Shown piece by piece: positions 3-29,993 of a stretch of 30,688 bases of DNA (position 1 is the first letter of the stretch; every line of letters starts with the position of its first letter). The position numbers and the translations under genes are program-made. The DNA is from a virus: the IMG/VR virus record IMGVR_UViG_3300032241_000518, positions 1 to 30,688 of that record; one strand, 5' to 3'. The notes under the pieces are model-generated. The model did no database searches. It was not told where the DNA came from and saw only the letters and a program-made list of their open reading frames with translations.

Positions 3-203
3 GAGATGAAAGCCTTCCGAGCATACGTAGCCAAGCGCACGAAAGCCGGATCATGGAGCCGAGACTTTGACTTCAAGACCGTGACCCCTGACGTAGCCGA
101 GGTTCTGAACGAACAGGCCCGAGTGAACGTTATCAAAGCGAGCCGCCGCCCTTTAGCCGGAAAGTCCATGAGTTACCGGGAGCCGCACGCTTCGACAAGC
201 TAG
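3..203 (+). CDS. Portal protein, C-terminal end (partial); zero frame of a probable frameshifted gene
   Basis: This frame is open at the left edge, so the gene starts outside the window. About 66 codons remain. The segment with FRAYVAKRTKAGSWSRDFDF followed by a VAEVLNEQ stretch looks like the basic, aromatic tail end of siphovirus portal proteins, which form the dodecameric ring at the capsid vertex through which DNA passes. The last 15 or so residues, after the CCCTTTA site at 149-155, are Ser/His-rich and look non-conserved, as expected for a zero-frame tail after a frameshift site. The next frame (MuF-like) begins in phase -1 and has no plausible start of its own. The portal assignment rests on this fragment and on gene order, so it is moderately sure; it could instead be the N-terminal part of a MuF protein. 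Confidence 0.6.
   Translation, partial: EMKAFRAYVAKRTKAGSWSRDFDFKTVTPDVAEVLNEQARVNVIKASRRPLAGKSMSYREPHASTS
149..155 (+). other. Putative -1 programmed frameshift site CCCTTTA (portal to MuF)
   Basis: The heptamer fits X XXY YYZ exactly in the zero frame: the codons are cct (Pro) at 150-152 and tta (Leu) at 153-155, preceded by c. A -1 slip re-pairs them as ccc ttt and continues into the MuF frame at 155, which is then open to 928. The zero frame stops 45 nt further on at 201-203. The same decamer CCCTTTAGCC, in the same phase, is found in the tail-chaperone gene at 7970-7979. No strong downstream hairpin was found by eye. An assembly indel cannot be excluded. Confidence 0.6.
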
Positions 204-928
204 TCAAGCACTACGGCCCGAAGATTGCTCAGGCTCTTGCCGCAGGCGTGACCCGTGAACACTTGATCGCTGCGATCCACGACGCTCAGAACAAAGTGAA
301 GGCGCCGATCCCCGGCGTGAACATCACGTACAACCCAATGCCGGTCTTGGGAGTCTTCCGTTCTATCTACGCTGACGCCTACCTCTCAGGCATCAAGGCC
401 GCAGGCGATAGCAGCGACGGCATCGTCAACATCAACGCTCTCGCAAATATGGCGACGAACATCAACTGGGACGACTGGAAGCCTGGCGATCCAGAAGCAG
501 CGTTGACGATGGCAGACGGCGGACTCAAAGACTTACTCGACGCCGCAGATCAGACCGTCAAGGACGTAACGGACACGACCTTGCTTCGCATGGGGAACGC
601 CATCGCAGACGGTCTTGCTTCTGGTGCATCAGTCGACACCATCGCCTCAGCGTTGCAAGACTTCCTCGACGATCCGTCAAGAGCGGACATGATCGCTACC
701 ACAGAGGTCAACCGAGCACAGACGACCGCTCAGGCTGAGCAGTTGGATGCGATGGGCTTCTCCCAGTGGACGTGGCTCGCCTACGACGGCGCCTGCGACG
801 AGTGTGCTGACAACGACGGTCAGGACTTCTCATTCGACGACGACATGCCACCAGCACATCCGTGGTGCCGTTGCTCAATAGTCGGTTCTGGCGAGGCTGC
901 ACTGAGCGATGACAACGAGGAAGACTAA
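155..928 (+). CDS. MuF-like head morphogenesis protein, probably made by -1 frameshift from the portal frame
   Basis: Phage Mu F / SPP1 gp7-type minor head protein, a portal-associated protein packaged in small numbers. The C-terminal domain holds the family signature: IATTEVNRAQ, then a YDGACDECADNDG loop with CxxC, and a HPWCRC ending that probably binds metal. The frame is open from 92 and contains no ATG, GTG or TTG until GTG 248, which has no ribosome binding site. The residues before it (ARFDKLVKHYGPKIAQ) read like real protein, so translation most likely enters from the portal frame at 149-155. If initiation at 248 were used, the product would be 226 aa. Portal-MuF fusions are known in actinophages; a frameshift-made one would be unusual. 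Confidence 0.75.
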   Translation, partial: SRKVHELPGAARFDKLVKHYGPKIAQALAAGVTREHLIAAIHDAQNKVKAPIPGVNITYNPMPVLGVFRSIYADAYLSGIKAAGDSSDGIVNINALANMATNINWDDWKPGDPEAALTMADGGLKDLLDAADQTVKDVTDTTLLRMGNAIADGLASGASVDTIASALQDFLDDPSRADMIATTEVNRAQTTAQAEQLDAMGFSQWTWLAYDGACDECADNDGQDFSFDDDMPPAHPWCRCSIVGSGEAALSDDNEED

Positions 929-1005
929 GTCACAGCGACCTAGCGCCACGAACTAAGTCGACGAGGCTACGGTTATCTCAGTTTCTCTAGGAGGCCCAAC
1001 TACTC

Positions 1006-7595: not shown

Positions 7596-8039
7596 ATGAT
7601 CGTCGCGTTACCAGGCAATGAGTCAGCAACGCTACGCACTTACGAAGAACTGACCGAGCGTCAAGCACGTCGCATCCGGGCGGCTCTTCGCGAGGCGTTA
7701 GTGGAGGCAGGCAACCTAGCGGCGGCAGGCTTCGACGAAACCAAGCCCGAGACGTGGGCGACGATCAAGAAGGATGAGAACGGCACATCCATCGAGGCCT
7801 ACCAAGACCGCTGCATCGTCGAACTCGTCAAGCAATGGACACTCGGCGACCTGCCAACGATGGAGACGGTCGGCGATCTACCTGCCAAGACCTACGAAGC
7901 ACTCGCACTTGCAGCGACAGAGGCCGCTCGCATGACATCGGAGGATGAAGGCGTCGACGCTAAGGTCAACCCTTTAGCCTCCAGCGACGGCTCGAACGTC
8001 TCCGCGCTCATCTCACAGGTCGAGGTCTCGAACCCGTAG
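7596..8039 (+). CDS. Tail assembly chaperone, G product (zero frame)
   Basis: 147 aa, analogous to lambda gpG. It is helical and Ala/Glu-rich (EELTERQARRIRAALREALVEA, PAKTYEALALAATEAARMTS). Chaperones of this kind bind the tape measure protein and recruit tail tube subunits and are not part of the virion. Near the end the codons for Pro-Leu (cct tta) form the slip site at 7970-7976. The zero frame ends 61 nt later. SD aagggag precedes ATG 7596. Confidence 0.85.
   Translation: MIVALPGNESATLRTYEELTERQARRIRAALREALVEAGNLAAAGFDETKPETWATIKKDENGTSIEAYQDRCIVELVKQWTLGDLPTMETVGDLPAKTYEALALAATEAARMTSEDEGVDAKVNPLASSDGSNVSALISQVEVSNP
7970..7976 (+). other. -1 programmed frameshift site CCCTTTA (tail chaperone G to GT)
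   Basis: In-frame X XXY YYZ heptamer (aac cct tta gcc in the zero frame). After the slip, translation continues from 7976 in a frame open to 8197. A -1 (sometimes +1) frameshift here is conserved in most long-tailed phages. The surrounding decamer CCCTTTAGCC is identical to the one at 149-158. Confidence 0.8.
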
Positions 8040-8197
8040 ACCCGGAGTTGGCTGATTGGTGGCGTGAGTATCGCTATCGTCAGTTGATCCCGATGCCCCA
8101 TGAGGCATACATGGAAGAGCCGGTCGGTGTGGTGGAATGGATGCTACGACTCGACAACCTGCGGCTGGAGGTGGAACACGAATGGCAGGCTCAATAA
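7976..8197 (+). CDS. Tail assembly chaperone, T extension (-1 frame, made as GT fusion)
   Basis: This frame lacks its own start and is expressed by slippage at 7970-7976 (fusion of 7596-7975 to this frame, about 200 aa). It encodes a charged linker followed by EPVDPELADWWREYRYRQLI and VVEWMLRLDNLRLEVEHEW, the aromatic/charged signature typical of T domains that contact the tape measure or tube protein. It overlaps the start of the next gene at 8182. No stop lies between the slip site and 8195. Its position directly upstream of the tail genes supports the call. Confidence 0.8.
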   Translation, partial: SLQRRLERLRAHLTGRGLEPVDPELADWWREYRYRQLIPMPHEAYMEEPVGVVEWMLRLDNLRLEVEHEWQAQ

Positions 8198-8688
8198 TCC
8201 TCGAAGGTCGCCAAGAGTTCAACACCGCCATCGACAAGATCAAGACCAAGACAAACGCCTACGTCAAGAAAGCCATCACCGAGATGAGCCAAGCGGTCGT
8301 TGAGTCCGCTCGTCGTGAGTTCACCACAGTCGTCGAGTCCGCAGACGGTCAGCGAGTCCTAGCGTCTGGCGAAAAGAAACTCAAAGGCGAGAAGATCGTG
8401 CGCAAGGGTAATCACGTCGGCGGCGTGCAGCCTCACATCCGATCCGGCGCACTGGCTCGCTCAATCAAGGCCGACATCACGAACATCAGCGTCGGTCGCT
8501 ACATGGCAGAAATCGGGCCGCACATGGTCTACGGTCGTCGCGTCGAACTGGGATTTACCGGACAAGACTCGCTAAAGAGAAACTACGATCAGCCCGGCTA
8601 CCCTTACCTCGGCCCCGGCTTCGAGAAAGCCATGCCAAAAGTCCGAAAAATCTACATTCGCAACATGACGGAGGCATTCAGTGTCTGA
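8182..8688 (+). CDS. HK97 gp10-like tail protein
   Basis: 168 aa. Starts at ATG 8182 with SD ggagg (8167-8171); the frame is open further upstream but that overlaps the T frame and has no SD. Features: N-terminal helix (REFNTAIDKIKTKTNAYVKK), VQPHIRSGALARSIKADIT and a GPHMVYGRRVELGF / YPYLGPGFEKAM ending. RxSGALxxSI, the xYxxxxExG element and the P-FLxPAxEK-like end are the hallmarks of the HK97-gp10/minor tail completion family. This protein is usually placed before the tube gene; here it lies between the chaperones and the tape measure. Confidence 0.7.
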   Translation: MAGSIILEGRQEFNTAIDKIKTKTNAYVKKAITEMSQAVVESARREFTTVVESADGQRVLASGEKKLKGEKIVRKGNHVGGVQPHIRSGALARSIKADITNISVGRYMAEIGPHMVYGRRVELGFTGQDSLKRNYDQPGYPYLGPGFEKAMPKVRKIYIRNMTEAFSV

Positions 8689-10327
8689 CCTTTTGCCCCC
8701 AGTAATCGCAACACTCATAGCCGACACTAAAGAGTTCAACGCAAAGATGGACGAAGCCATCGGCAAAATGGAAGCGGTCGACGGCGCATCGGCTGAATCT
8801 GGCGCAGGCATCGCAGCCGGTCTCGGACTTGCAGGTGGCGCAGTCGCTGGTCTGGCAGTTGGAATTGCCGGTCTCTCCATCGACGCAGCGATGAACTTCC
8901 AGAGCGCCATGACGCAGGTGCAGAACTCGGCAGGTCTCAGCGCTAAGCAGGTCAAGTCGCTTGGCGATGCCTTTCAAGGCACCATGTTTACGACTGAGTT
9001 CTCATCGACGCAGATAGCGCAGGCCTACTCAGGCGTCGCCGGTCAGTTGGAACTTCTCAACGGCAAGGCGCTCACGACCAATCAGGCGATGGGCTTCGTG
9101 ACCGCGACGATGGACTTGGCGACTGCGAAGCATCTTTCACTAGCCGATGCGATGTCATCCGTGACGAGCGTAATGAAGTCCTTCCAAATGCCAGTCGCGC
9201 AAGCTCAGAGCGTCACGAACGCTCTCTACGTCACCTCGGGTCTCACCGGAAGCAGCGTCGACAGTCTCTCGGGCCAGTTCACGAAAATGAAGATGAAACT
9301 TGGCGAAGTGACTCCGAGCGTTTCTGACCTGGACAACCTCATGGTCGACATGACTGAACACGGCGTCGGTCAAGGTCGGGCGCTGCAAACGGTCTCGTCA
9401 GCGATGACCAAACTGCTTGACCCTTCCTCGAAGAACAACGTGCTCATGGAGCAGCTCGGCGTCAACGCTTTCAACGCGTCAGGCAAGTTCGTCGGCATGC
9501 AGCAAGTTCTCGCTCAACTTCAACCAGCGTTCGCCAACATGAACCAAGAGCAGCAAATCCAAACGGCGACCACATTGTTCGGCGCTGGCGCTGCACAACA
9601 AATGCTCACGCTGATTCAGGCAGGCCCGGCGGCCTACAGCGCAGCAGCGACAGCAATTCAGAATCACGCCAACGTCACGCAAGGCGCAGCAAACGCTTCT
9701 AATAACCTGCACACGCAACTCGAAACGCTGAAGAGTGGAGCGCAAGACCTCGCCACGCAACTTGGCAACGCACTTCTCCCAGTTGCCAATCAGGTCGTCG
9801 GCTGGCTCTCAACGACAGGCGTGAAGGACTTACATGACTTCACAAACGCATTCGACGGAAAAAAGATTCAAGGCTTTGCCGGCACACTCGGCGCAGAATC
9901 GAAGAGCATCATCAAGTCGGTTCAAGACATTTACAAGGCAGTCGAGCCGCCTACGGCAGGCGTCATCGGTTTCGTGAACAAAGTCGTCACACTTATAGGA
10001 TTCAGTAAGGGTCTTATGTCAACGTGGGACTCAATCGCCAACGATGTCAAGACACACGCTCAGCAACTCACGCCTCAGCCGACGCTCTCGCAGATTCCTC
10101 AATCACAACAGGCGCCATCGTCAGTTGGCTTTCCGAACATCAGTCTGTCCGGGCTTACTGCCACAGAAGGCCAAGTGGCATCAAACCTGACCAATGTCGT
10201 TTCAAACACCGCCACGACGCATCAAAAAATCACCACAAGCAACACGCATCTTGGCAACATCAACACCGGCATCACCAAACTGGCGAACCAGAAAAACACT
10301 TACAAGGTCAAGGGGACGATCAAGTAA
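8681..10327 (+). CDS. Tape measure protein (short)
   Basis: 548 aa. It sets the tail length and is ejected with DNA. The sequence starts with the usual ...LIADTKEFNAKMDEAIGKME helix, a Gly/Ala-rich hydrophobic segment at ~42-70, then a conserved TMP core (FQSAMTQVQNSAGLSAKQVK, then a GTLFG-like TATTLFGAGAAQQML) and helical repeats. The C-terminus is Gln/Thr-rich. At about 0.15 nm per residue the tail would be roughly 80 nm, short for a siphovirus. GTG start overlaps the previous gene by 8 nt. Confidence 0.88.
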   Translation: MSDLLPPVIATLIADTKEFNAKMDEAIGKMEAVDGASAESGAGIAAGLGLAGGAVAGLAVGIAGLSIDAAMNFQSAMTQVQNSAGLSAKQVKSLGDAFQGTMFTTEFSSTQIAQAYSGVAGQLELLNGKALTTNQAMGFVTATMDLATAKHLSLADAMSSVTSVMKSFQMPVAQAQSVTNALYVTSGLTGSSVDSLSGQFTKMKMKLGEVTPSVSDLDNLMVDMTEHGVGQGRALQTVSSAMTKLLDPSSKNNVLMEQLGVNAFNASGKFVGMQQVLAQLQPAFANMNQEQQIQTATTLFGAGAAQQMLTLIQAGPAAYSAAATAIQNHANVTQGAANASNNLHTQLETLKSGAQDLATQLGNALLPVANQVVGWLSTTGVKDLHDFTNAFDGKKIQGFAGTLGAESKSIIKSVQDIYKAVEPPTAGVIGFVNKVVTLIGFSKGLMSTWDSIANDVKTHAQQLTPQPTLSQIPQSQQAPSSVGFPNISLSGLTATEGQVASNLTNVVSNTATTHQKITTSNTHLGNINTGITKLANQKNTYKVKGTIK

Positions 10328-14984: not shown

Positions 14985-15881
14985 ATGACAGACGTTCGTA
15001 ATCAGATCGTGCAGTGGGCCGAATGGGGCGTGGCAAATCACGCAGGCTTTACGTACTCCGAAGGCAGCGACCGGATGGAAGGCGTCCACAAGCCCGGCGT
15101 CACGCCATGCGTTTGTGACTGCTCAGCGTTCGTGACCTACTGTTACTCATGGGCTGGCGCTGCTGACCCGAACGGACAGGGCTACGACGGCGAAGGCTAC
15201 ACCGGCACGCTGCTCTCACACGGCACCGAGATTCTTCTCAGCGAGGTCATTCCCGGCGACGTGATCGTCTATGGGCCGGGAACTGGCGAACACACGGCAC
15301 TCATCGTTCAGGGTGGCGCAGACCCTCTCACCGTCAGCATGGGCGAGCAGGGCGACCCTTCCTACATCCACGTCAGCCAAGACGGTCGTCAGCCGCAGCG
15401 TTACCTCCGCTTCGACACCACCCTCGTTGGCACCTCGGCACCACAGCCAAAAACGGCGCCAGTCGTCGCAGCACCGGAAGTCTCGAACTTCGATCAAGTG
15501 CCAGGCGTCACGGTCGCTCAGATTCAAGCCAAGTTAGGCGTCACCGCCGACGGCGTCGCTGGGCCAGTGACCATCGCAGCTGCGAAGGCATTCCAAGCAG
15601 CACACGGTCTCGAAGTCGATGGAGAAGTCGGGCCGCTTACGTGGGCTGCGCTTAACAAGACCGCTCCTGCCCCGGCACCCACACACGCAGTCGAGCCGAC
15701 CATCTCGCAAGGCGCTACAGGGCCTGCGGTCGTCTTGCTCCAACAGCACCTCGGCGGTCTCGTCACTGACGGCGTCTTCGGCCCACAGACGAACGCTCAC
15801 GTCCGCCAGTTCCAAGCAGCACACCATCTCGTCGTCGACGGCATCGTCGGCCCGCAGACATGGGCGGCACTGGGAATCTAA
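14985..15881 (+). CDS. Endolysin: NlpC/P60-type peptidase with two peptidoglycan-binding domains
   Basis: 298 aa. ATG 14985 follows SD taggag; longer in-frame starts overlap the preceding gene and are rejected. The catalytic domain (1-150) has the NlpC/P60 cysteine motif DCSAFV with Cys46 and the histidine motif GEHTALIV with His103, expected to cleave peptide bonds in cell-wall stems. Two PG_binding_1 domains follow: ~172-222 (VAQIQAKLGVTADGVAGPVT) and ~240-298 (VVLLQQHLGGLVTDGVFGPQ; GIVGPQTWAALG), separated by Pro/Ala linkers. No signal peptide, so export depends on a holin, and three membrane-protein genes follow. Confidence 0.9.
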   Translation: MTDVRNQIVQWAEWGVANHAGFTYSEGSDRMEGVHKPGVTPCVCDCSAFVTYCYSWAGAADPNGQGYDGEGYTGTLLSHGTEILLSEVIPGDVIVYGPGTGEHTALIVQGGADPLTVSMGEQGDPSYIHVSQDGRQPQRYLRFDTTLVGTSAPQPKTAPVVAAPEVSNFDQVPGVTVAQIQAKLGVTADGVAGPVTIAAAKAFQAAHGLEVDGEVGPLTWAALNKTAPAPAPTHAVEPTISQGATGPAVVLLQQHLGGLVTDGVFGPQTNAHVRQFQAAHHLVVDGIVGPQTWAALGI

Positions 15882-22835: not shown

Positions 22836-23059
22836 AGGGCAACCTTGCGCACGTATTGAAAGCGACGCGCCAGACGGTCGAGGAAGCACCCTTTCCTGAC
22901 GAATGGTGGAAAGAGACCATTGGGCGAGTTCCAAAAGATCGCTCGAAACTCACTGAAGCTGAGGTCTTCGGCATTCTCTATCTGCTCGTCATCGACCAGT
23001 ACGCACCACAGATCACGACTGGGCCGAATCGAGCCAAGCGTCGAGCGAAGAAGAAGTGA
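22829..23059 (+). CDS. Hypothetical basic protein (76 aa)
   Basis: 76 aa from ATG 22829, SD aggagg (22815-22820). Contains DEWWKETIGRVPKDRSKLTE and a very basic end (NRAKRRAKKK), typical of nucleic-acid-binding or packaging-associated small proteins. A hydrophobic segment VFGILYLLVIDQY lies in the middle. It overlaps the neighbours on both sides. Function not recognised. Confidence 0.65.
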   Translation: MVKGNLAHVLKATRQTVEEAPFPDEWWKETIGRVPKDRSKLTEAEVFGILYLLVIDQYAPQITTGPNRAKRRAKKK

Positions 23060-23367
23060 TGCTGCCGCTACGTTGGCAAGACCGGGCTGCGTGCAAGGGA
23101 GAAGACACGGCGGCGTTTTACCTCGACGCTGCGGACTATCCCGACGAGATAGAGCGCCTGCGCAACATCTGTCGCACCTGCCCGGTTCTTGCCGATTGTG
23201 GCGAGTATGCGCTCAAATACGAGTCATGGGGCTTTTGGGCTGGCATGACCGTGTCGGAGCGTAGAAGAATCAGAAGTCGGGAAGGGATCGCGAAGGTCTC
23301 TATTCGCAACGCACATCTAGCACTATTACCGGGAAGACAAGATGAAAAAACTATGGGAACACCCTGA
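23059..23367 (+). CDS. whiB: WhiB-family transcription regulator
   Basis: 102 aa from ATG 23059 (GTG 23056 would add one residue). Numbered from the GTG, four cysteines at 13, 39, 42 and 48 (AACKGED ... NICRTCPVLADCGEYAL) have the C...CxxCx5C spacing that binds a [4Fe-4S] cluster, followed by the GFWAGMT turn (usually GvWGG) that contacts sigma factor. A basic tail (RRRIRSREG) follows. Such proteins are confined to actinobacteria and their phages; phage versions can redirect host sigmaA transcription. It supports the host assignment. Confidence 0.9.
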   Translation: MLPLRWQDRAACKGEDTAAFYLDAADYPDEIERLRNICRTCPVLADCGEYALKYESWGFWAGMTVSERRRIRSREGIAKVSIRNAHLALLPGRQDEKTMGTP

Positions 23368-28457: not shown

Positions 28458-28696
28458 TGCCGCCACGCACGCCAGTCGAGAAAATCGCAGCGATGACGAC
28501 CGCCGAAATCATCCTCGACGCCTACAACACATCACTCCAGGCGCTCAATGCGACCCTCGCTCTCACGAATGAATCCATGCACGATTCCTGCTTTCGCACG
28601 TTCAACGAACTAGCCGAAGCGATGAAACATCTTGGTCATGCGTACTCAGTCATGCTCGCAAACGTCGGCGAAGGGAGCCTCGATGAAAAAAGTTGA
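28454..28696 (+). CDS. Hypothetical helical protein (80 aa)
   Basis: 80 aa, ATG 28454 (ATGA overlap; second ATG at 28457). PVEKIAAMTTAEIILDAYNT, SLQALNATLALTNESMHDSC and FNELAEAMKHLGHAYSVM make a helical bundle without recognisable motif. It overlaps the start of the methyltransferase gene by 14 nt, whose SD (cgaaggga) lies inside it. Confidence 0.6.
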   Translation: MMPPRTPVEKIAAMTTAEIILDAYNTSLQALNATLALTNESMHDSCFRTFNELAEAMKHLGHAYSVMLANVGEGSLDEKS

Positions 28697-29993
28697 CCGG
28701 CTAGATATCAAAAGAATCAAACTCTCAGACACCAAACAGCATCCGCACAACCCTCGACAGGGTGATGTCGGAGCCATCGTGCAGTCACTCGAAGCGCATG
28801 GTCAGTACGTGCCAATCGTCGTTCAAGCCTCGACAATGCACATCATCAAGGGAAACCACACGGCGCAGGCTGCTCGAATCCTCGGACTGGACGAGATAGA
28901 GGCAGTAATCCTCGACGTAGACGACGACCAAGCTTTGCGCATCATGCTCGCCGACAATCAGACCGGCGACTTGGCAACTAATGACAAATCCATCCTCGCC
29001 GATCTGCTCGAAAGTCTGATCGGTTCCGAATTTGGACTGGGAGGCACCGGCTTCACCGGCGACGACCTTGACGAGCTGCTGGTCGAATTTGAGCCAGAGA
29101 CCATCATCGAAGACATCAAAGAAATTGAGCCAATCCAAAACCTTCCCAAAATCACCAAGCCGGGCGACATTTGGATTCTTGGTCGGCACAAGCTCATCTG
29201 CGGAGACTCGACCACGCACGAAACCTACCGAGACTTACTGATAAATGAGCCAGTGGATTTGATCATCACCGATCCGCCATACAACGTTGCGTATCAAGGT
29301 CGCACTGACGACAAACTGACAATTCAGAACGACAACATGAGCAACAAAAATTTCCATGACTTCCTAGCAGCATCGTTCAGGCAGATGGAAGCCGCCATGA
29401 AGCCAGGTGCTCCGATTTATGTGTTTCACAATGACACCGCAAGCCAACAATTCCGTGAGACTTTGTCAAACTCAGGATTGCTACTCAAGCAGGTGCTCGT
29501 CTGGGTCAAGCAAAAAATTGTGCCGGGACGGCAGGACTACAACTGGCAACATGAGGCAATCCTTTATGGGTGGAAGGAAGGCGCAGCTCATCGCTGGTAT
29601 GGACAATTCAACAAAAGCACCGTGATCGATGACGACCTGAATCCAGAAGGCATGACCAAAGACGAACTAGTTGATATCTTTAATCAAATCAAACTGTTAT
29701 CAACGGTCATCAGGGAGGATCGGCCCAACCGCAACGGCGAGCATTCAACGATGAAGCCAGTGCGCCTCATCGCAAGGCTGATGCAGAACTCCAGCAAACC
29801 TAGAGACATCGTCCTCGACCCATTCGGAGGCTCCGGCTCTACCCTCATGGCGGCCGAGCAGCTCAACCGACAAGCAAGACTGGTGGAACTAGACCCTTCA
29901 TACTGCGACGTCATCTGCAACCGCTTTGAGGGTGTCACCGGCATCGTGCCCATACTGGAATCCACAGGCGAGGAAGTTTCGTTCGTAGACTGA
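28683..29993 (+). CDS. ParB-like domain fused to DNA methyltransferase
   Basis: 436 aa; ATG 28683 with SD gaaggga (open frame upstream rejected). Residues ~1-120 are ParB/Srx-like (KLSDTKQHPHNPRQGDVGAI, GQYVPIVVQ, HIIKGNHTAQAARILGLDEI, ADNQTGD), a common partner of phage MTases. The MTase part has motif IV DPPY at 197-200 (ITDPPYNVAYQG) and later motif I FGGSGST at 381-387, an order (IV before I) of the beta class acting on adenine-N6 or cytosine-N4. PGDIWILGRHKLICGDS is the usual lead-in. The part from ~29250 to 29720 is visibly more AT-rich than its neighbours, suggesting acquisition. Likely protects phage DNA from restriction. Confidence 0.87.
   Translation: MKKVDRLDIKRIKLSDTKQHPHNPRQGDVGAIVQSLEAHGQYVPIVVQASTMHIIKGNHTAQAARILGLDEIEAVILDVDDDQALRIMLADNQTGDLATNDKSILADLLESLIGSEFGLGGTGFTGDDLDELLVEFEPETIIEDIKEIEPIQNLPKITKPGDIWILGRHKLICGDSTTHETYRDLLINEPVDLIITDPPYNVAYQGRTDDKLTIQNDNMSNKNFHDFLAASFRQMEAAMKPGAPIYVFHNDTASQQFRETLSNSGLLLKQVLVWVKQKIVPGRQDYNWQHEAILYGWKEGAAHRWYGQFNKSTVIDDDLNPEGMTKDELVDIFNQIKLLSTVIREDRPNRNGEHSTMKPVRLIARLMQNSSKPRDIVLDPFGGSGSTLMAAEQLNRQARLVELDPSYCDVICNRFEGVTGIVPILESTGEEVSFVD
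29986..29991 (+). promoter_or_regulatory. -10-like TAGACT, leaderless start for TerS
   Basis: TAGACT (overlapping the end of the methyltransferase gene) ends 6 nt before GTG 29998, which has no SD. It would uncouple terminase expression from the early operon. Shares its sequence with the sites at 26383 and 27912. Confidence 0.45.

Follow-up and report, generated by a model that had tools for sequence, protein, structure and literature searches.

A −1 frameshift is reportedly the means by which phages extend their tail-assembly chaperones, lambda G/GT among them, in the account attributed to Xu, Hendrix and Duda in 2004. In T7 gene 10, a −1 shift produces a longer, minor form of a virion protein, and in dnaX, which gives gamma and tau, the slip yields the short product. 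The major head and tail proteins of Lactobacillus phage A2 are likewise cited as having minor forms lengthened by a −1 shift (PMC7260188). In the searchable literature, tail chaperones make up almost all of the phage genes annotated with a frameshift, and the unconfirmed predictions of PRFect list MuF-like genes and may include further cases (PMC10885494). The portal protein and MuF occur as in-frame fusions in Arthrobacter phage Sonali and in Microbacterium subclusters EA3, EA5 and EA8 and cluster EB (PMC7302621), and slippage has been predicted in gp4/gp5 of phage Emery (KC595516), called head morphogenesis protein (Merrill et al, 2014; PMC4168068). A literature search, with most subscription journals outside its coverage, found no portal–MuF frameshift besides this Emery prediction. 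Here, we describe a contig of an uncultured phage, 30,688 bases long (IMG/VR record IMGVR_UViG_3300032241_000518, hereafter the window), in which a −1 programmed frameshift at the heptamer C CCU UUA very probably yields a plain portal and a minority portal–MuF fusion from one gene. A shift of this kind appears to operate in a wide range of related phages as well.

The locus shares some features with each of these systems. It is like lambda G/GT in its working, and the window phage itself appears to have a G/GT-like site at 7970 with the same heptamer as the one at 149; however, the site at 149 joins the portal and MuF, which are head and not tail genes, so it is not itself of the lambda type, and its product is presumably a part of the virion. 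The A2 and T7 gene 10 shifts concern other proteins and involve no MuF. The actinophage in-frame fusions likewise consist of a portal domain followed by MuF and belong to PHROG 2662, but they are encoded in one frame, whereas the window fusion needs a −1 shift and the plain portal is the default product.

Overlap of the portal and MuF frames at an in-phase heptamer

Window coordinates are on the plus strand unless stated otherwise, and L numbers denote the loci of relatives. The 5′ end of the window lies inside the portal gene and the 3′ end in an open reading frame (ORF) judged by eye to resemble the start of a terminase. The C-terminal end of the portal gene spans 3–203 with its zero-frame codons running from 3, and it ends at TAG (201–203), where the initial annotation had placed it. 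The whole portal ORF, as read in L003 and L010, has 669 codons, and that of L003 matched PHROG 2662 (portal) at 6.5e-33 and Pfam Phage_portal (PF04860) at 2.6e-7 with 30.6 bits, which is under the cut-off of 39.1. The MuF frame is −1 with respect to the portal, overlaps the portal ORF and is open from 92 to 928 with the stop TAA at 926–928. The earlier reading that this frame has no ATG, GTG or TTG until GTG 248 was borne out; this GTG (248–250), the sole canonical start candidate ahead of the MuF core, was judged unused. The MuF part of the window matched Pfam Phage_Mu_F (PF04233) at 1.7e-14 with 55 bits, over the curated cut-off of 29.6. PHROG 2662 is a single in-frame portal and MuF family model, and the portal and MuF halves match its two parts.

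The slippery heptamer C CCU UUA, of the form X XXY YYZ, is located at 149–155. The zero-frame codons at this site are CCT (150–152) and TTA (153–155), so a −1 slip moves the portal frame into the MuF frame, and the phase proposed in the initial annotation was confirmed by the codon positions. The MuF part of the predicted fusion would span 155–928 in the −1 frame, and the product would read ...SRRPL-SRKVHELPGAARFDK... across the junction. The site is contained in a 19-nt block, GCGAGCCGCCGCCCTTTAG (138–156), which is the same in the window, L012, L027 and L029, synonymous positions included. The codons GCG AGC CGC CGC CCT TTA are identical in the four phages, and TTA is rare, at 11 of 5,927 codons over a set of likely window genes. 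Scanning viral contigs with the 19-nt DNA pattern recovered an extra divergent member (L226), and its matches outside portal genes in L218 and L220 were taken as chance. On the plus strand of the window, CCCTTTA is found at 149 and 7970 only.

Slippery heptamers in the relatives

Relatives were collected by two portal searches with alignment, 80 loci each, and near-copies are counted unless thinning is mentioned. The MuF frame was −1 relative to the portal in 112 loci, fused in frame in 31 and +1 in 2. The 112 loci with −1 MuF (unthinned) contained no mixed case: 49 had an in-phase heptamer in the overlap but lacked a junction start, and the other 63 combined a start, mostly ATGA, with an overlap free of heptamers. 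The counts fell to 23 heptamer loci against 16 start loci on thinning at 85% identity (Fisher p 2.7e-11, relatedness ignored). The same site had been proposed earlier for search in related phages, and an in-phase slippery heptamer was present in 23 of 23 non-redundant start-less −1 loci, a set thinned slightly differently, as compared with 3.5 expected by synonymous recoding and 0.9 by base composition. In portal bodies, in-phase heptamers numbered 9 per 14,126 codons. Six heptamer types were observed (CCCTTTA, CCCTTTT, CCCAAAA, GGGAAAA, AAAAAAA and AAAAAAG), and the type switches at least 10 times along the portal tree with slipperiness and phase retained. The initial annotation had regarded homologues with separate, start-bearing MuF genes as adverse to a shift; such homologues were found, most of them in a sister clade where start and stop overlap, but their overlaps contain no heptamer.

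In E. coli, the motif C_CC.U_UU.A gives more than 0.10% unstimulated −1 shifting (PMC4066793), the window host being probably actinobacterial. The heptamer types of the relatives fall among the E. coli shift-prone motifs, GGGAAAA by way of the general rule V_VV.A_AA.R (PMC4066793). The window encodes a WhiB-like transcription factor at 23056–23367 (Pfam 2.7e-16), and therefore an actinobacterial host is indicated. The portal search among isolate phages returned distant relatives only, and those inspected, Sonali, Mufasa8, THSA-485A, Polewnik and MMB025, have the portal and a MuF-like C-terminus in a single frame. Prophage relatives were sought in bacterial genomes and none was confirmed.

Frame relation and selection at the junction

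Four contigs from other metagenomes (L003–L006), which are 98.2–98.5% identical to the window, gave an ungapped alignment across the junction. L012 and L013, with the portal 68% and MuF 52% identical to the window, share its layout and match it exactly over the 19-nt block, their portal ending in KASRRPL plus 11 residues and their −1 MuF lacking a start. An indel near 149–155, which had earlier been named as a possible source of the frame change, was checked on these relatives' contigs; the frame relation was kept in both groups, and together they ruled out a sequence error. Furthermore, the −1 frame from the heptamer on showed fewer nonsynonymous than synonymous changes (pN < pS), with 0.06 versus 0.53 for L027–L029 and 0.26 versus 0.81 for the window and L012, and this purifying selection covers the stretch upstream of GTG 248.

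Phage Emery has a comparable arrangement: MuF lies in the −1 frame behind a protein with weak portal similarity, and the change of frame falls at T TTT TTA (L102:3246). Portal_T4 matched the first part at 4.8e-4, a value under the cut-off, and the −1 part was identified as MuF. Where Emery has six T, its relatives, which range in identity from 97% to about 70%, have seven, and read-through was shown for L191, L192 and L194. Because these relatives have seven T and an in-frame fusion, the frame change in Emery is probably a one-base homopolymer indel, as judged from the sequences, and Emery as an independent second case was undermined. The relatives of the window keep the frame relation, whereas those of Emery do not.

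Possible stimulatory elements were also looked for around the site. In the clade with A7, CCCAAAA and GGGAAAA, a 5-bp hairpin starts 6 nt after the heptamer, and all of its pairs are formed in 10 of 10 sequences; two pairs are changed on both sides, in 6 cells, and 0 of 500 shuffles scored as high. In L044–L075 (CCCTTTT), the site is followed by a comparable hairpin, in which one pair is changed on both sides. A Shine–Dalgarno (SD)-like stimulator upstream of the heptamer was not supported as a general rule, being clear only in L035 with a mean z of −0.34 over the set.

Alternative explanations for the frame change

Some observations weigh against a programmed shift in the window. The in-phase heptamer in its own overlap has a p of about 0.08 under synonymous recoding, the downstream structure in its own clade was not significant (z −0.6), and the SD-like score upstream of its site is weak (z −2.4) and gets no backing from the set mean given above. 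In addition, the loci are related, so that the counts overstate independence. Since the window heptamer taken alone reaches a p of about 0.08 only, the argument rests on the relatives.

The translation of MuF as a separate protein, from GTG 248 or a non-standard start and coupled to portal termination, is improbable. In a sister clade, MuF is indeed encoded separately, with overlaps of the ATGA type, and GTG 248 is 45 nt past the portal stop; however, no SD was seen ahead of it, though the neighbour genes have one, and a start there would remove about 30 conserved N-terminal residues (ELPGA...HYGP.I). The start position is also unconserved, with none in L012, TTG in L027 and ATG elsewhere in L031, and the −1 frame is under selection upstream of GTG 248. 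It is very improbable that RNA polymerase, and not the ribosome, shifts the frame by slipping in the mRNA. This is conceivable for the relatives with A7–A9 runs, and transcriptional slippage on A runs has been discussed (PMC4066793), but CCCTTTA is not a homopolymer, and CCCTTTA, CCCTTTT, CCCAAAA and GGGAAAA have in common just the tandem-slip pattern and the phase.

We give very little credence to the heptamer being a by-product of protein conservation (Ser-Arg-Arg-Pro-Leu) with no role in shifting. Although the close clade keeps SRRPL and the p of 0.08 for the window alone agrees with such an origin, the rare TTA and all the adjacent synonymous choices are identical in four phages, and the relatives with KKK, DPF or LPK replacing SRRPL remain slippery. 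The chance that an in-frame fusion gene was broken by an indel, through sequencing error or gene decay, appears negligible: in-frame fusion relatives exist and the Emery case looks like one of this kind, but the frame relation of the window recurs in contigs of several metagenomes, even where portals have diverged by more than 30%, and its MuF is intact and under purifying selection. The joining of portal and MuF by a −1 programmed frameshift, as claimed in the initial annotation, is supported, and strongly so by the comparative evidence. Also in its favour are the covarying hairpin of the A7, CCCAAAA and GGGAAAA clade, the single PHROG 2662 family that spans both halves, and the second C CCU UUA of the window at 7970.

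In-frame fusions with candidate slip sites of opposite polarity

When the in-frame fusion relatives were thinned, the linker region held an in-phase heptamer in 9 of 11, as compared with 0 of 16 separate-gene relatives in the last 50 portal codons. In the L015 clade, the heptamer is C CCA AAA (C CCT TTA in L069), and a −1 stop follows 4–9 codons on, which is always TAC TAA and comes from zero-frame xxT ACT AAR. In-frame fusions with a heptamer and a −1 stop at this distance were mapped at 6079 in L015, 5227 in L034, 2758 in L039, 6072 in L045, 3114 in L047, 7031 in L059, 3561 in L069 and 7067 in L085. The joint chance of a heptamer and a near stop under synonymous recoding was 0.007 to 0.25 per L015-clade locus, and its product over nine loci was 9e-13 with relatedness ignored. 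There were exceptions: L064 keeps the −1 stop without a strict heptamer, in L084 a heptamer is absent, and the −1 stop is distant in L082 and L086. When the L015 in-frame fusion was modelled by AlphaFold, the portal part was poor (mean pLDDT 55.5), and the slip region was a low-confidence linker ahead of a better-modelled MuF domain.

It is likely, though not certain, that a −1 slip in the L015-type fusions would yield the plain portal. This arrangement is like dnaX in having an in-phase heptamer in the linker, a −1 stop soon after and a slip that would lead to the shorter protein. The predicted slip of the window type runs the other way, toward the longer protein. In L042 (4938–8563), the portal ORF retains the linker DTPK and the −1 TACTAA and then enters an extra domain, and MuF is a separate ORF whose ATG overlaps the portal ORF stop. 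On balance, we favour the idea that the family conserves its output, a plain portal and a portal–MuF fusion in a set ratio, and not its wiring, which would be a −1 slip to the fusion, an in-frame fusion with a slip to a stop, or separate genes with a start-stop overlap.

Second heptamer in a tail-chaperone-like gene

The zero-frame gene at 7596–8039 is a putative tail-assembly-chaperone (G-like) gene by its position ahead of a minor tail/tape-measure-like gene (8681–10327). It has relatives in 7 contigs, although it had no PHROG match and no profile names it. The second C CCU UUA lies in phase within this gene at 7970–7976 and opens into a GT-like −1 extension of 75 residues (7970–8197). Relatives carrying CCCTTTA or CCCAAAA conserve this extension. 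It was compared among the window, L106, L111 and L112, and the opposite-orientation loci L107–L110 were left out. By position and conservation, the 7970 site fits the place and form of the classical tail-chaperone G/GT shift.

Elsewhere in the window, a ParB N-terminal domain fused with an N6/N4 DNA methylase is encoded at 28632–29993. A tRNA-Ser (tga) called by ARAGORN at 15468–15557 on the minus strand is antisense inside a lysin-like gene and is likely a false call.

Predicted mechanism and MuF dosage

In the proposed mechanism, the majority of ribosomes would follow the portal frame to the stop at 201–203 and make the portal of about 669 residues, a size taken from the L003 ORF. In a minority, the two tRNAs would re-pair one base back on CCC UUU and translation would resume at AGC 155 into MuF, giving a portal–MuF fusion of about 911 residues. 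The fusion would join the portal ring via its portal half and bring MuF to the head, and the slip rate would fix the number of MuF-bearing subunits in the ring. The sequences themselves show the two frames, the conserved site, the lack of a start, purifying selection on the shifted frame and the association of these features across relatives. We infer the occurrence and rate of the slip, the mixed rings and the dosage of MuF by slip frequency.

The MuF protein gp7 of SPP1 binds to the portal, with 1–2 copies per capsid (PMC5576092), and about 25% of SPP1 virions are infectious without gp7 (PMC6316719). If the MuF copies are as those of SPP1 gp7 and the ring has 12 subunits, a slip of roughly 8–17% is predicted, because this corresponds to 1–2 copies per ring. 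Among the MuF proteins behind the predicted shift, that of L054 (6965–9199) ends in a glutamine-deamidase-like domain of the papain fold (Pfam PF15644, 2.6e-5), and the MuF ORFs of L012 (5172–6929) and L035 (6803–8728) have long C-terminal extensions with no further Pfam match.

The slip site would set, by translation, the MuF copy number in heads with a many-subunit portal ring, and this number would be tunable or removable through synonymous changes, which is of relevance to the MuF proteins bearing toxin-like C-terminal domains. For annotation, gene callers would place the MuF start too late or overlook the fusion in many phages. If the family does conserve its output, the selected trait would be a ring composition with few MuF-bearing subunits.
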